Shown here: positions 1 to 7,138 of the stretch, one piece after another
Layout: every line of letters begins with the position of its first letter
Position numbering within the stretch: position 1 is the stretch's first letter
Assembly (NCBI GenBank): GCA_947369305.1
Contig: CANBLA010000050.1
Location: 1-7,138, forward strand
Direction: 5' to 3'
Source: an uncultured Clostridia bacterium
GTDB lineage: Bacteria; Bacillota_A; Clostridia; TANB77; CAG-508
DNA length: 7,138 nt
Position numbers and translations under genes: made by a program
Notes under the pieces: model-generated
Databases searched by the model: none
What the model was told of the DNA's origin: nothing
What the model saw: the letters and a program-made list of their open reading frames with translations, nothing else

Positions 1-54
1 CCCCCCAACCCACACACAAAGACACTCTTTCCCTACACGACGCTCTTCCGATCT
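1..54. other. Illumina sequencing adapter and junk at contig end (not genomic)
   Basis: Bases 22-54 match the 33-nt Illumina TruSeq read 1 adapter, from ACACTCTTTCCC through to GCTCTTCCGATCT. Bases 1-21 are C- and CA-rich, unlike the AT-rich remainder, and look like adapter or low-quality remnant. Genomic sequence starts at about base 55, in the middle of a gene. The contig was therefore assembled from reads that were not fully trimmed, and its left boundary is not biological. Confidence 0.96.
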
Positions 55-2171: not shown

Positions 2172-3461
2172 ATGAGTGAAATAATGATAAAAATAACCGA
2201 TTTGGTAAAAGAATATAAGATGTTTGCCCGTAAAAAAGACCGTTTATTAGAAACGATTTTTCCAAATTTTATTCATAAACATGGAACATTTAAGGCAATG
2301 GATAATTTGAATTTGGAAGTTAAAAAAGGGGAAGTTTTAGGAATTTTAGGTAAAAATGGAGCTGGAAAATCCACTCTTCTTAAAATGATAACTGGTGTTG
2401 TAGTTCCAACATCTGGAACAATTGAAGTGAATGGAAAAATTAGTTCTTTATTGGAGCTTGGAACAGCTTTTAATCCAGATTTGACAGGCGTTGAGAATAT
2501 TTATCAACATGGACAAGTCATGGGACTTACGTTAGAACAAATTGAAGCAAAGAAACAGGAAATTATTGATTTTGCAGATATTGGAGAACATTTGTATCAA
2601 CCAGTAAAAACGTATTCATCTGGTATGTTTGCCAGACTTGCATTTGCGTGTGCGATTAATGTCGAGCCAGATGTGCTGATAGTAGATGAGGTTTTATCAG
2701 TAGGAGATATGGCGTTTCAATTAAAATGCTTTAAAAAGTTTGAGCAATTTAAAAAACAGGGGAAAACGATTTTGTTTGTAACACATGGTATTAATGATGT
2801 CTTAAAAAATTGTACTAGAACGATTATTCTTGAAAACGGTAGAAAGATTTTTGATGGTGATGTCAAAACTGGTGTTGATAAATACAAAAAAATCATGGTT
2901 GGATTGGATATTGATGCAGAAATCAAAGATGACAAAAACAAGATGATTTTACCAAAGGATGGGGAAATCTGGAAAAATCACTTTGAAGTAAATAAAGAAG
3001 CTTTGGCATATGGAACGGATGCAGTTGATATTTACGATTATGGTGTTTTTGACGAAAATGGAAAGTATGCTTTATCGATTAACAATGATGATACAGTGGT
3101 CATAAAAATGAAAATTCATTTTAAGCAAGATATAGAAGATCCAATTTTTGCAGTTACAGTAAAAGATGTCAAAGGAAATGAATATTGTGGAACCAATACT
3201 TTGATTTATAAAATGGTGACTGGTAGTTACAAAGCGGGAGAACAAGTAGTTGTAGAGTTTAAGCAAATGATACCAATTGCACCAGAAAAATACACCCTTT
3301 CTTTTGGGTGTACAAAATATAAGGCAAACGGTGAATTAGAAGTGTATCAAAGAAAATATGACGCATTATTTATTGAGATTGTTTCTAATAGACAAAGTGT
3401 TGCGATGTGTGATTTGAAGAGTGAAATTACGTATCAAAAAATAGAAAATCAGAAAGGATAA
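2172..3461 (+). CDS. Polysaccharide ABC exporter ATPase with C-terminal Wzt-like domain
   Basis: This 429-residue protein powers the permease encoded at 396-1184. The nucleotide-binding domain spans about residues 5-240. It has Walker A GKNGAGKST (60-68), ABC signature YSSGM (148-152), Walker B VLIVDE (168-173) and the switch histidine H205, so it appears catalytically intact. LLELGTAFNPDLTGVENI (93-110) is characteristic of the Wzt/TagH/RgpD subfamily. Residues about 250-420 form an extra beta-rich domain absent from simple TagH-type ATPases. In E. coli O9a Wzt such an extension binds the modified non-reducing end of the glycan and couples chain termination to export; that role here is inferred. 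The start is not fully settled: ATG 2172 is 1 nt after the previous stop with a distant AAGGA (2151-2155), and an in-frame ATG at 2184 would begin MIKITDLVKEY equally well. Confidence 0.92.
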   Translation: MSEIMIKITDLVKEYKMFARKKDRLLETIFPNFIHKHGTFKAMDNLNLEVKKGEVLGILGKNGAGKSTLLKMITGVVVPTSGTIEVNGKISSLLELGTAFNPDLTGVENIYQHGQVMGLTLEQIEAKKQEIIDFADIGEHLYQPVKTYSSGMFARLAFACAINVEPDVLIVDEVLSVGDMAFQLKCFKKFEQFKKQGKTILFVTHGINDVLKNCTRTIILENGRKIFDGDVKTGVDKYKKIMVGLDIDAEIKDDKNKMILPKDGEIWKNHFEVNKEALAYGTDAVDIYDYGVFDENGKYALSINNDDTVVIKMKIHFKQDIEDPIFAVTVKDVKGNEYCGTNTLIYKMVTGSYKAGEQVVVEFKQMIPIAPEKYTLSFGCTKYKANGELEVYQRKYDALFIEIVSNRQSVAMCDLKSEITYQKIENQKG

Positions 3462-3466
3462 ATTAA

Positions 3467-4450
3467 ATGAAATTCAATTTAGATTTTTATCAAGGAGACG
3501 ATCAGTATAGTGATGGTGATATTGAAGAAGAAATTCTAAAATATACAGAAAGATATTCTGAAAAAGAGATGCATCAGATTTTTGAAAAGGATATTCGTTG
3601 GCCAATATTTTATCATTTGACAAAGATTCGAAAAAATATATTAAATTGGTATCCGATGAAAAAGAATGCTTCTGTTCTTGAAATTGGTGCTGGCATGGGA
3701 GCGATTACAAGCACACTTTGTGACAAAGCAGATCATGTGGTTTCTGTTGAGTTATCTAAAAGAAGAGCAACTGCAATTGCCAATCGAAATCAAGAAAGAG
3801 AAAATTTAGAAATTATAGTTGCTAATCTAAATGATGTAAAATTTTCGGAGAAATTTGATTATATCACTTTAATTGGTGTTTTAGAATATGCACCATTGTA
3901 TACTAATACGGAAAATCCATATATTGATTTTTTGACGTATATTAAAAAGTTCTTAAAAAAAGATGGGAAATTGTTAATTGGAATTGAAAATAAGTTGGGA
4001 ATGAAGTATTTTGCTGGAGCGCCAGAAGATCATACAAATCGAGCTTATGATGGTATACAAGGTTATTATAATACAACAGCGGTTCGTACTTTTGGAAAAA
4101 AAGAATTACAGGATATATTGTCTGAAATAGGGCTAAAATATACTAAATTTTATTATCCATTGCCAGATTATAAATTGCCTAATATTATATTTTCAGATGA
4201 AAACTTGCCAAATGAAAAGACAATTGAAAATTATGATATCTATTATTATGAAGGAACGAAAATTCAATTTGATGAGAAAAAGGCATATCAAGAAACAATT
4301 AAAAATGGGGTATTTGATATTTTTGCTAACTCATTTTTAGTTGAAGCATCTAGCAAAAAAATTAGAACAAGAGTTGATTTCCAGAATATACAATATGAGG
4401 AAGCAACTAAAGAAGAACAAAAATTTTATTGTAAAGATGATACAAAATAA
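3467..4450 (+). CDS. Class I SAM-dependent methyltransferase, catalytic motifs intact
   Basis: This 327-residue cytoplasmic protein carries a Rossmann-fold methyltransferase at about residues 60-235. Motif I is VLEIGAGMG (70-78). The acidic residue ending strand beta-2 is E95 in VVSVELS. NLNDV (120-124) follows, then FDYITLIGVLEY (130-141) at strand beta-4. Later segments KDGKLLIGIENKLGMKYFAGA and FYYPLPDYKLPNIIFSD recur in the downstream protein encoded from 5324, so the two are paralogues. The N-terminal 60 residues are helical. The C-terminal 45 residues (from about FANSFLVEA, 286-294) align with the beginning of the kinase-like region of the paralogue and then stop, so this copy is methyltransferase plus a stub. 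The RBS AGAAAGGA (3451-3458) is well placed. Probable substrate is the surface glycan, perhaps its terminal residue, but nothing in the sequence fixes this. Confidence 0.85.
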   Translation: MKFNLDFYQGDDQYSDGDIEEEILKYTERYSEKEMHQIFEKDIRWPIFYHLTKIRKNILNWYPMKKNASVLEIGAGMGAITSTLCDKADHVVSVELSKRRATAIANRNQERENLEIIVANLNDVKFSEKFDYITLIGVLEYAPLYTNTENPYIDFLTYIKKFLKKDGKLLIGIENKLGMKYFAGAPEDHTNRAYDGIQGYYNTTAVRTFGKKELQDILSEIGLKYTKFYYPLPDYKLPNIIFSDENLPNEKTIENYDIYYYEGTKIQFDEKKAYQETIKNGVFDIFANSFLVEASSKKIRTRVDFQNIQYEEATKEEQKFYCKDDTK

Positions 4451-4478: not shown

Positions 4479-5312
4479 ATGAGAAGAAAAATAAAAATAG
4501 TAGGAATCATAATGATAACGATTGCTTGTATTTATTTAGGAATTCGAACAAGGGAGAAAAATGGAATTGTTGTGATGTCACTTAAAACAAGTCAGCAACA
4601 ATCTTTTGGATATTTGTTAGAGACAAATAAGCAAAAGATTGTTATGATAGATGGTGGAAGTGCAGAAGATAGTGAGCATTTGGAAGAACTTCTTTTGCAA
4701 AAAGGTGGTGTTGTGGAGACTTGGTTCATCACAATTGCACATCCAGAAAATTTTGGCGCGATGCAAGAAATTATGAAAAAAGAAAAGATTGAAATTAAAA
4801 ATATTTATATTAGTTTTAATCCTGCAGATTGGTATGCTAAATATGAACCAGAGAAATATGAAGAAGTTGCAGAATTTTTAGATTTGATTTATAGTGAAGA
4901 TGTGATTCAAAAAGTATATAATGTGCCACTTCGTTTTGAAGTTTTGGTGGATAACTTATATTTTACTGTTTTAAATGTAGCTAATCCAGACTTAGAAAGT
5001 ACGCAATTAGGATTTGATCAATCCATGGTAATTAAAGTAAATAATACTTATAGGAGCATGATTTTTATGGGAAGTATAGGAAATATAGGAGCACAAAAAA
5101 TGAAAGATAACAACTTAGATGAAATCGATTGTGATGCTGTCCAAATTTCAAATACAGAGCAAGTCGAAGATGAAATTTATCAAAAAATGACACCAAAGTA
5201 TCTGTTTGCAACAGGCAAACAAAAAACTTATTTAGAACATCTAAAACAATTGCTAAAACCGACAGAAGTTTATATTTCTAATGGGGAAGATATGACCGTA
5301 AAAATATGGTAA
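4479..5312 (+). CDS. Membrane-anchored metallo-beta-lactamase-fold-like protein lacking metal ligands
   Basis: This is a 277-residue protein. A positive start (MRRKIK) and a hydrophobic segment (about 7-22, IVGIIMITIACIYLGI) give a signal anchor, so the rest is probably extracytoplasmic. The body looks like the ComEC-type metallo-beta-lactamase fold: a strand, then IVMIDGGSAED (54-64), matching the conserved DGG turn, followed by a helix and a strand ending FITIAHPENFGAM (83-95). In active members that strand leads into an HxHxDH metal-binding motif; here only H88 survives. Later FDQSMVIKV (179-187) and MIFMGS (194-199) correspond to the NxxS and FTGD segments, with Gly-Asp replaced by Gly-Ser. 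The HHGS-like position near 220-228 reads AVQISNTEQ. The hydrolase is thus predicted to be metal-free. Its role is unknown; a structural or glycan/protein-binding function in surface polysaccharide assembly is a guess. Fold assignment is moderate, loss of ligands is clear if the fold is right. Confidence 0.7.
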   Translation: MRRKIKIVGIIMITIACIYLGIRTREKNGIVVMSLKTSQQQSFGYLLETNKQKIVMIDGGSAEDSEHLEELLLQKGGVVETWFITIAHPENFGAMQEIMKKEKIEIKNIYISFNPADWYAKYEPEKYEEVAEFLDLIYSEDVIQKVYNVPLRFEVLVDNLYFTVLNVANPDLESTQLGFDQSMVIKVNNTYRSMIFMGSIGNIGAQKMKDNNLDEIDCDAVQISNTEQVEDEIYQKMTPKYLFATGKQKTYLEHLKQLLKPTEVYISNGEDMTVKIW

Positions 5313-5316
5313 GGAG
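5312..5316 (+). promoter_or_regulatory. Ribosome binding site for the last gene
   Basis: AGGAG begins on the last base of the preceding stop codon and lies 7 nt before the ATG at 5324. It selects ATG 5324 over the in-frame ATG at 5306, which lies inside the preceding gene. The resulting N-terminus MKVNTEF parallels MKFNLDF of the paralogue starting at 3467. Confidence 0.8.
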
Positions 5317-5323
5317 TAAAAAT

Positions 5324-5713
5324 ATGAAAGTCAATACAGAATTCTTGAAACAGGAAATTGAGATAACGCAAAAAGAGCAAAACATTATTTCTAATTATAT
5401 AGAAAAAATGACACGAAAAGAATATTGTCAAGTTCTTGAAAATACAAAGAATTTGGAACTCTTTAATGCACTTTCTGTTTTAAGAGAAAATAGTATTAAT
5501 TGGTACGATTTTAAGAAAGAGTCAAATATTTTGGAAGTGAATTCTAATTTTGGGGAGATTACAGGATATTTATGTAGTCATGCCAAAAAAGTAGTTCTGA
5601 CGCAACCAGCGCTTAAAAAATGTGAAGCAATTTCCAAAAGGTATGAAGATATTTCAAATTTAGAAATATTTGCTGGAGAAATACGGAGAGATTCATTTGT
5701 CAGAAAAATTTGA
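5324..5713 (+). CDS. Frameshifted large protein, N-terminal part: degenerate methyltransferase domain
   Basis: Residues 1-119 (bases 5324-5680) align with the methyltransferase encoded at 3467, sharing INWYDFKKESNILEV against LNWYPMKKNASVLEI and NLEIFAG against NLEIIVA. From 5681 this frame yields unrelated residues (IRRDSFVRKI) and stops at 5711-5713. Skipping one base at about 5681 continues the homology exactly in the frame 5682 onwards, so the two pieces are one gene with a 1-nt insertion. The SAM-binding loop is degraded: the paralogue's E-x-G-x-G-x-G is here E-V-N-S-N-F-G (71-77), and the beta-2 acidic residue is Q94 where the paralogue has E95. The domain probably no longer binds SAM normally and may serve as a scaffold. 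If the frameshift is real, translation ends after 129 residues and no functional protein is made. If it is an assembly error, the gene is intact. Confidence 0.8.
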   Translation: MKVNTEFLKQEIEITQKEQNIISNYIEKMTRKEYCQVLENTKNLELFNALSVLRENSINWYDFKKESNILEVNSNFGEITGYLCSHAKKVVLTQPALKKCEAISKRYEDISNLEIFAGEIRRDSFVRKI

Positions 5714-7138
5714 TTATATTATTATTGAAAATCATCCAGAGCATTTGAGATTTGTCAAGTCATATTTGAAACCAGATGGAAAAATATTGCTTCTAACAGA
5801 AAATCGTTTTGGAATTACTTATTTTGCAGGAGCCAAAGGTAAGGATAATATGTATAGTTCCATTTGTGAAAAAAAGGAAAATGCTTTTAGTAAACCGGAA
5901 TTAGAAAATTTATTAAAAGTAGAAGGTTTCCAAAATTATCGTTTTTATTATCCACTTCCCAATTATAAAATACCAAATGTTATTTTTTCCGATTATTATT
6001 TGCCAGATAGTACGGATACGAAACTAAATTACAATGCCTTATATGAAAGAGGTAGTTTTGTGATGTTTGATGAATTAAAAGCGATGAAACAATTGACAGA
6101 AAATTATCAATTTGCTTTTTTTTCAAATGCATATTTTGTAGAAATTGCAAACCAAGAAATAAAAGACAAGCAACCTCAATTTGTGAGCTTTAACAATGCA
6201 CGAAAATCTGAATATCAGTTAATTACTAAGATTTATAGCGATGAAGTTCAAAAACAAGAAGCAAATGAAAATGCAAAGGCACATATTGCAAAGATTCAAG
6301 AAAATATTGAACACCTAAAAAAACTTGGTTTTCAAATGTTAGATGATACTAAAAATGATATTATTTATTCTCGATTTGTTAAACAAGAAAGGTTTGATAA
6401 GAGACTTGTTGTGAAAATACTCGAGAATGATATAGAAAGTGCTTTGCTAGATATTTGCAAATGGTATGAACATATAAAAGAAAAGATGGAAATTAGTCAA
6501 AATTGGAATCAAGATTTGTTTGCCAAGATGCAAATGCCCCAAAATTTAACACCAATTAAAGATGGTTATATTGATTTGGTTTTTGAAAATACATTTTATG
6601 TAGAAGAGGAGTTTTTATTTTTTGACCAAGAATGGTATATAAAAAACATTCCATTAGAATATATTTTATATCGAAGCATTCATAATTTATATGTATATCA
6701 TCAAGAATTAGAAAAAATACTAACACAAGAGGAATTTTTGAAAAAATTTGACCTTTTACAATATTGTTCCATATTTGAAAAAATAGAGGACTACATTCAA
6801 AATGAAATTTCAGATAAAAACATGGAAATCATTCGAAAAGAAAGTCAACAGGCTTTAAGAGATGCAAATGAGTTAAGTTTATTAGTTAGTCAAATTCAAG
6901 ATTTTAAAGAGGAAGATGCTAGAAAAACTTTCATTATTCAAAATTTAGAAAAAGAAGAAAAAAATAAGACACAATATATCGAAGAATTAAAAAAAGAAGA
7001 AGAAAATAAAACAAATTATATTATAGCTTTGGAAAATATAAGAACGAATCATGAAAATCAAATCGAAAATTTAAATACAATCAATCAAAAAAAAGATGAA
7101 ACAATTCAGCAATTAAATGAAATTATTAAAGTCAAAGA
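5682..7138 (+). CDS. Frameshifted large protein, continuation: methyltransferase end, kinase-like domain, coiled coil (runs off window)
   Basis: This frame is open without a stop from 5682 to the window end (485 codons; corrected residues 120-604). It begins YGEIHLSEKFDYI, matching the paralogue's SEKFDYI, and completes the methyltransferase fold with LTENRFGITYFAGA (157-170) and FYYPLPNYKIPNVIFSD (207-223). Residues about 265-490 look like a kinase-like fold: YQLITKIY with K302 as candidate beta-3 lysine; a helix around 318-334 with E326 or E329 as candidate partner; a hinge-like IIYSRFVKQE (346-355); D417-L-x-x-x-N422 as catalytic loop; and D434 in FFDQEW (432-437), 12 residues after N422, in the DFG position. 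The HRD histidine/arginine is absent (GYID). Residues about 497 onwards are coiled coil with 14-residue repeats. The order matches WbdD (methyltransferase, kinase, coiled-coil ruler). It is the last gene visible; whether a glycosyltransferase domain follows cannot be seen. Confidence 0.75.
6903..7138 (+). repeat. Tandem 14-residue (42-bp) coiled-coil repeats, continuing past the window
   Basis: Five full 42-bp units start at 6903, 6945, 6987, 7029 and 7071, with a sixth cut by the window end at 7113. Each begins with a Leu (Phe in the first). Units 2 and 3 are most alike: LEKEEKNKTQYIEE and LKKEEENKTNYIIA. Unit 1 is FKEEDARKTFIIQN; units 4 and 5 (LENIRTNHENQIEN, LNTINQKKDETIQQ) are more diverged. 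Fourteen residues equal two heptads, so the units can form a continuous long helix of fixed increments. This encodes a rod-like coiled coil and its length could vary by gain or loss of units. Confidence 0.75.

Follow-up and report, generated by a model that had tools for sequence, protein, structure and literature searches.

The 7,138-nt forward-strand stretch of contig CANBLA010000050.1 analysed here (hereafter the window, to which all coordinates refer unless a locus is named) closes on a gene of an uncultured, probably gut-dwelling clostridium that is probably a Gram-positive member, assigned to Bacillota by its relatives, of the methyltransferase (MT)-kinase-coiled-coil chain terminators of the Klebsiella pneumoniae O7 ORF6 kind, phosphate-capping a glycan exported by an ATP-binding cassette (ABC) transporter. 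The basis in hand consists of predicted folds, invariant kinase residues, lost S-adenosylmethionine (SAM)-binding residues, operon order, co-occurrence with the exporter ATPase Wzt and homology to the O7 type. The cap chemistry, a ruler action, recognition by Wzt and methylation in trans would follow by analogy with described systems, and it is likewise by analogy that we infer the capping, ruler and Wzt-recognition steps put forward in an earlier reading of this DNA (the original prediction), which took Escherichia coli WbdD as its model.

The terminator gene occupies two overlapping frames. Relatives exist that carry both parts in a single frame, and the two frames are taken to be one gene split by a frame break near 5690; the break was left unmended and both pieces were analysed apart. 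The ATG at 5324, preceded by the ribosome-binding-site-like AAGGAGT, is the likelier start, and P0004, the second frame's counterpart in the database (512 amino acids, aa), extends 23 aa beyond the window's last whole codon. Locus L069 (10626-12087 of that locus) likewise has its terminator spread over two overlapping open frames, of 207 aa and 294 aa, the latter truncated at the locus end.

In a protein search with the second frame, 205 of the 7997 proteins scored reached E 1e-5 or better; the best 120 were listed, one being the window's own, and P0004 together with 86 of the 119 listed relatives forms an 87-row alignment (A1). Its invariant columns include P0004 R178, K195, D302, N307, D319, Q320, E321 and W322, and the pattern D-x4-N...DQEW is present in 118 of the 119 listed relatives. 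D302, N307 and D319 are the residues numbered D417, N422 and D434 in the original prediction, so the kinase-like catalytic motif claimed there is real. The AlphaFold model based on A1 (mean predicted local distance difference test (pLDDT) 92.5) places kinase-type lobes at residues 165-395 and one long helix at 399-508; the kinase fold expected for the region numbered 265-490 in the original prediction is thus what the model gives, no refuting fold being seen there, and the proposed order of MT, kinase and coil is found in the models as well. The kinase part was named by none of Pfam (E up to 1), NCBIfam (E up to 0.1) and a single-sequence PDB search (E up to 10). Relatives of 25-29% identity are also encoded by the phage records MT836085, MT839147 and MT836982, unannotated faecal 'Bacteriophage sp.' entries that are possibly misassigned bacterial contigs.

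The description of the protein as WbdD-like holds for the domain order and fails for the kinase sequence. Orthology to WbdD is ruled out at the sequence level: hhalign of A1 against E. coli HS WbdD gave 1.3%, in the MT part only, the kinase regions gave 0.05% and 0.39%, which is no detectable sequence relation, and no WbdD appeared among the best 60 of 63 matches of the A1 profile to PDB sequences or among the best 50 rows of VIA with either model. The fold search against WbdD suggested in the original prediction had a mixed outcome. With a full-length relative as query, Foldseek matched the WbdD entries 4azt over 441 columns (chain of 435 residues) and 4azs over 499 (chain of 442); these column counts, set against the chain lengths, imply that both the MT and kinase domains lie in the alignment, and the template modelling (TM) scores are low (0.21/0.27 and 0.21/0.26).

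The O7 type is nearer. Using tblastn, we found two plasmid-borne Gram-negative loci with the order Wzm-Wzt(Wzt_C)-MT/kinase, encoding proteins of 649 aa in Citrobacter braakii and of 1457 aa, with two stretches of glycosyltransferase family 2 (GT2), in Pseudomonas asturiensis. The residues named for K. pneumoniae O7 ORF6 in the text consulted are Y28, Y66, G91, G93, E112, Y158 and the catalytic D441 (PMC11231755); the first six stand at identical numbers in the Pseudomonas protein, which has an Asp at 443, and in the Citrobacter protein the numbering is shifted by -1 to +5. By this residue fingerprint, not by alignment to the ORF6 sequence, the two proteins (alignment A3) are taken as ORF6 orthologues. 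Comparison of the window-type family (alignment A2) with A3 by hhalign gave 99.9% (E 7.6e-31) over 459 columns through MT and kinase, with D, N and EW aligned. For the kinase alone, inclusion of 17 rows as intermediates, drawn from samples of Paenibacillaceae and Lachnospiraceae and containing three genes in duplicate and one row of the L079 type treated below, gave 96.3% (E 1.9e-9, 203 columns), and hmmsearch then matched the two O7-type kinase regions at E 1.9e-5 and 0.008; between these intermediates and the window-type kinase, the match is at E 6e-43. On these sequence comparisons, the window kinase is nearer to the O7 ORF6-type terminator than to WbdD, which is the right analogue and not the nearest relative.

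The genomic context was surveyed in one genome per species, the best 80 of 181 loci serving as the sample; these are biased towards retaining the kinase motif because the scan patterns include it. The co-occurrence with a Wzt bearing a C-terminal domain (CTD), which the original prediction had named as a check, is pronounced: within the fetched flanks, 76 of the 80 loci encode a Wzt with a window-type CTD and 72 a Wzm. All 76 Wzt-CTD genes lie on the same strand, at a median gap of 1.0 kb, 74 of them within 5 kb and 72 upstream of the terminator. As for the four loci without one, L028 abuts the end of its contig and the contig of L049 is 6.2 kb long, and contig limits do not explain the absence in L075, where an ATPase match without CTD lies upstream, or in L079. 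Across 143 genomes of one order, the family was found in 42, Wzt_C in 42, both in 41 and neither in 100 (Fisher p 1.5e-33), counting strong matches only (weak short ones at E 3e-13 to 1e-3 and one under-cut-off Wzt_C match were dropped); 39 family/Wzt_C pairs share a contig, all within 4.9 kb, and two pairs are on different contigs. Similarly, 100 genomes from the family of the Lachnospiraceae record L079 contained the kinase family in 49 (E 1e-20 or better, some rows matching the MT part only), Wzt_C in 60 (two rows under cut-off dropped) and both in 47 (p 4e-14), and 52 of 60 family rows were on a contig with Wzt_C, all within 3.7 kb. Kinship among genomes inflates these p values. In 118 genomes from the family of L076 (Paenibacillus), the kinase family was detected in 12 at E 1e-10. 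The original prediction would have been refuted by equal occurrence at non-ABC (Wzy-type) loci; the flippase profile PF01943, tried as a Wzx control, matched 143 of 143 genomes and was useless, so Wzt_C linkage was measured instead and found to be close, Wzy genes not having been searched for.

At five SAM-binding positions the terminator reads E-N-N-G-Q versus E-G-G-G-E in the stand-alone MT encoded upstream in the same operon; its degenerate motif I is ILEVNSNFGE (about 5528-5557), and the intact SAM-binding motif of the O7 ORF6 type (G91, G93 and others) was not found in the window terminator. The original prediction was therefore correct about a methyltransferase fold, its signature being degenerate in the window copy, and judging from these residues the MT half is probably non-catalytic. 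The stand-alone MT is a paralogue of the terminator's N-terminal half. In a 95-row tree made by a quick method, 15 stand-alone MTs, the window's included, form one clade (Shimodaira-Hasegawa-like approximate likelihood ratio test (SH-aLRT) 97), which groups (100) with the terminators of L076 and L079, both with motif I retained. An MT gene of 325-328 aa recurs in 7 of the 80 loci (L004, L005, L026, L030, L035, L052 and L055), four of which (L004, L026, L030 and L035) also have the window's gene order; given this recurrence and the clade, the idea that the window's MT is a truncated paralogue was ruled out.

The 80 loci contain 16 MT-like frames without a kinase, 14 of which read E-G-G-G-E; the intactness of stand-alone MTs is partly a matter of definition because E-G-G-G-E frames were given that name. 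The remaining two (L069 and L080) border on a kinase frame and resemble the N-terminal end of the terminator in their locus. Of the 80 terminators, 7 retain the middle glycine of motif I. E-G-N-G-E is found in two terminators from the 14 loci that have a stand-alone MT and in eight from the other loci, where 10 further terminators are one or two positions off the full signature yet preserve glycines one and three as well as the acidic residue; these forms of the signature, of the FkbM-type motif, may still be functional. Among 75 database relatives with a recognisable MT-domain start, none has the full signature, 28 have a partial one and 47 neither. Other arrangements exist: in L096, a Wzt with Wzt_C is followed by an MT (345 aa) and a kinase with a long coil, in L106 by an MT (299 aa) and a kinase-coil-GT2 protein, and L090 (Paenibacillaceae) pairs such a Wzt with a fused 693-aa MT-kinase-coil protein in which motif I is intact.

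The C-terminal helix has a periodicity of 3.5 residues (moment 0.121, reached by none of 2000 shuffles), as expected of the coiled coil originally proposed, although 'long' was generous for about 110 residues. Measured from a fixed offset past DQEW, the post-kinase stretch spans 54-88 aa (10th-90th percentile) in 67 unfused, untruncated loci, and in 63 of 66 such loci the C-terminal 20 residues carry a net positive charge. Some tails carry an S-x-SW-K-x-TKPLR-type motif that resembles SRSWRMTKGYR of E. coli HS WbdD. Tails longer than 350 aa occur in nine loci (L009, L033, L037, L052, L054, L055, L060, L063 and L065), and all nine contain GT2 domains, an arrangement as in K. pneumoniae O7 ORF6.

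Taken together, a mechanism can be proposed in which glycosyltransferases would elongate a polyprenol-linked glycan inside the cell, with the coiled coil and the basic C-terminal tail holding the kinase domain at a set distance from membrane and polymerase. The kinase, through its catalytic Asp, would phosphorylate the non-reducing end and so stop elongation, and the phosphate cap would be the mark recognised by the Wzt CTD, such that only capped chains are exported. In the window branch, the terminator's MT half would probably be a non-catalytic scaffold, and phosphate methylation, if any, would be performed in trans by the stand-alone MT. On a wider scale, it is conceivable, and offered here tentatively, that throughout Bacillota an entire branch of surface polysaccharides owes both its chain length and its clearance for export to an end cap based on phosphate, with the window-clade terminator pulled apart: the kinase would keep the coil and a dead MT for scaffolding or docking, and either a paralogous free MT would finish the cap in trans or no MT would act, the cap then being a phosphate or a cyclic phosphate.

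Several observations weigh against reading the gene as an O7-type terminator. Without intermediates, a kinase-only hmmsearch of the window-clade profile against O7-type kinases gave E 19 or no match, and kinase-only hhalign gave a non-significant 5.5% (score 24.9, at most 18.7 in 50 column shuffles); the intermediates themselves were chosen by a pattern demanding D, N and EW. MT decay goes significantly with the presence of a stand-alone MT by one measure and not by the other: the SAM score is lower for terminators in loci with a stand-alone MT (one-sided Mann-Whitney p 0.002), and the first glycine and acidic residue are both retained in 4 of 14 terminators with and 29 of 66 without one (p 0.38). 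In the Lachnospiraceae count, Wzt_C is missing from the contigs of 8 among the 60 family rows. The relative in L079 (9599-11305 of that locus; 568 aa, motif I intact) lacks a coil and sits amid glycosyltransferase and TPR genes; its flanks contain neither Wzm nor a Wzt CTD, the sole ATPase frame being on the other strand beside a BPD_transp_1 gene. The frame break in the window copy, too, may be an assembly fault or real. With the L079 protein as query, 3725 of the 7999 proteins scored reached E 1e-5; among the 120 listed, 115 are 550-590 aa long, and P0142, P0161, P0203 and P0241 are Lachnospiraceae-type MT-kinase proteins with SAM motif I intact that lack a coil and end soon after the kinase. 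Such coil-less relatives mean that family membership alone is no proof of chain termination, and the L079 locus means that the family is not bound to ABC export. They also raise the question of whether L079-type proteins phosphorylate something other than an ABC-exported glycan.

The L079 locus indicates that phosphorylation need not go together with chain termination and export, and it is what favours a kinase that decorates an internal, adaptor or branch sugar, its coil merely tethering it to membrane or polymerase. We consider this unlikely for the window gene, as the terminator closely adjoins a CTD-bearing Wzt, the post-kinase tail is fairly narrow in length and the homologous O7 enzyme is described as terminating chains (PMC11231755). 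The frame break and the intact MT next to it would also suit a decaying pseudogene, with the stand-alone MT alone methyl-capping the chain as described for E. coli O8 WbdD (PMC3482155) and proposed for Geobacillus WsaE (PMC2943079). This is quite improbable, since the kinase and coil frame is fully open with all invariant residues retained, and the same-order relatives L004, L026, L030 and L035 have unbroken kinase genes with their motifs; moreover, assembly quality is doubtful because the contig start carries an exact 33/33 match to a sequencing adapter (window 22-54). A true WbdD orthologue, a single bifunctional enzyme that phosphorylates and methylates by itself, would share the domain order, the Foldseek matches implying both domains and the basic S-x-SW-x-x-TK-type tail seen after the coil in several relatives. 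The missing kinase sequence relation, the lost SAM signature and the low TM scores make it the most improbable of these alternatives. An O7-type terminator whose kinase adds a phosphate cap, with methylation, if any, left to a separate MT, remains the reading we prefer.

The window operon, all on the + strand, comprises Wzm, GT2, Wzt(Wzt_C), the stand-alone MT, a metallo-beta-lactamase-fold protein and the terminator gene (Table 1). All three pieces the original prediction had drawn together (ruler-like protein, ATPase with CTD, methyltransferase) lie in it; the methyltransferase is the intact separate gene, the terminator's own MT half being degenerate, and the ruler action would hold by analogy. 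Homologues of the ComEC-like gene, which sits between MT and terminator, occur in 30 of 80 loci; its start at 4479 is a chosen start codon, the open frame running from 4341. The adapter match, to an Illumina TruSeq adapter, is joined to the 3' end of a gene (2-280) resembling GDP-mannose dehydratase genes and is an assembly artefact. No plasmid was matched by the window in a megablast search.

Table 1. Features of the window and the evidence for each
Feature	Position	Strand	Evidence
Wzm-type ABC-2 permease, 262 aa	396-1184	+	Pfam ABC2_membrane 2.5e-15
GT2 family glycosyltransferase, 328 aa	1184-2170	+	Pfam Glycos_transf_2 9.2e-32
Wzt-type ATPase with C-terminal carbohydrate-binding-type domain	2172-3461	+	Pfam ABC_tran 1.3e-23
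Wzt_C domain of Wzt, residues 278-415	about 3003-3416	+	PF14524 5.4e-33
Stand-alone class I MT, 327 aa, SAM signature intact	3467-4450	+	Pfam Methyltransf_11 1.3e-9
Membrane-anchored metallo-beta-lactamase-fold (ComEC-like) protein	4479-5312	+	NCBIfam ComEC_Rec2 1.6e-4, far under cut-off
Terminator, first frame: N-terminal part of MT-fold domain	5306-5713, start ATG 5324	+	ORF list
Terminator, second frame: rest of MT-fold domain, kinase, coil	5670-7136, open at window end	+	ORF list, relatives
Kinase-fold domain, P0004 residues 165-395	6162-6854	+	Alignment A1 and AlphaFold model
Kinase residues K195; catalytic D302; N307; DQEW	6252; 6573-6575; 6588; 6624-6635	+	A1 alignment
Coiled-coil helix, P0004 residues 399-508 (protein's last 23 residues beyond window)	6864-7138	+	AlphaFold model, periodicity

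Little is known of how Gram-positive bacteria control the length of the wall and S-layer glycans that they export by ABC transporters, or of how they determine when a chain may be exported, and chain stopping by phosphate capping has been studied chiefly in Gram-negative bacteria. A common, syntenic kinase whose catalytic Asp is invariant and which neighbours a Wzt carbohydrate-binding domain opens the question to direct tests in many bacteria of gut and soil. It also offers a class of candidate enzymes for terminal phosphates, among them the one on a reported clostridial S-layer glycan, and suggests that separation of kinase and methyltransferase is one way for cap chemistry to evolve. Our literature search, mostly at title and abstract level, found no Gram-positive MT-kinase terminator, which is no proof of novelty; Paenibacillus alvei WsfC was ruled out as a precedent, being described with a CDP-glycerol-type domain. 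The ORF6 orthologues reported include alpha- and gammaproteobacteria and cyanobacteria, and the words Gram-positive, Firmicutes and Bacillota are absent from the main text of that paper (PMC11231755).

Cap-dependent stopping with Wzt recognition is described for O9a-type systems and proposed for Gram-positive S-layer glycans (PMC3482155, PMC11231755, PMC2943079). Like the window system, Geobacillus stearothermophilus WsaE with its Wzm/Wzt concerns a Gram-positive ABC-exported glycan with proposed cap-dependent termination, but WsaE consists of an MT and two rhamnosyltransferases and caps with 2-O-methyl, no kinase figuring in its description (PMC2943079). The Clostridioides difficile SLCT-11 (Ox247) locus is likewise clostridial, its ABC-exported S-layer glycan ending in 2,3-cyclophosphoryl-rhamnose with a proposed O9a-like role, although the capping enzyme is not named in its description (PMC6254364). 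E. coli O9a WbdD has in common with the window-type proteins the MT-kinase-coil order, the Wzm/Wzt partner and, in several relatives, a basic/aromatic post-coil tail; it differs in its kinase sequence lineage, an MT active in cis and a longer C-terminal region (460-708) (PMC3482155). The closest likeness is to K. pneumoniae O7 ORF6, which is described as phosphorylating and then methylating a glycan mimic, the D441A variant giving no conversion (PMC11231755). Both have an N-terminal class I MT fold, an APH/AmiN-like kinase with the catalytic Asp aligned and a C-terminal coil, both types adjoin Wzm and a CTD-bearing Wzt (seen in two Gram-negative orthologues), and nine relatives share the C-terminal GT2 modules. 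In contrast to ORF6, the window type has Gram-positive hosts, lacks an Ig-like domain between kinase and coil in the predicted models and mostly has its glycosyltransferase modules as separate genes, and the window terminator pairs a degenerate MT half with a separate, intact MT.
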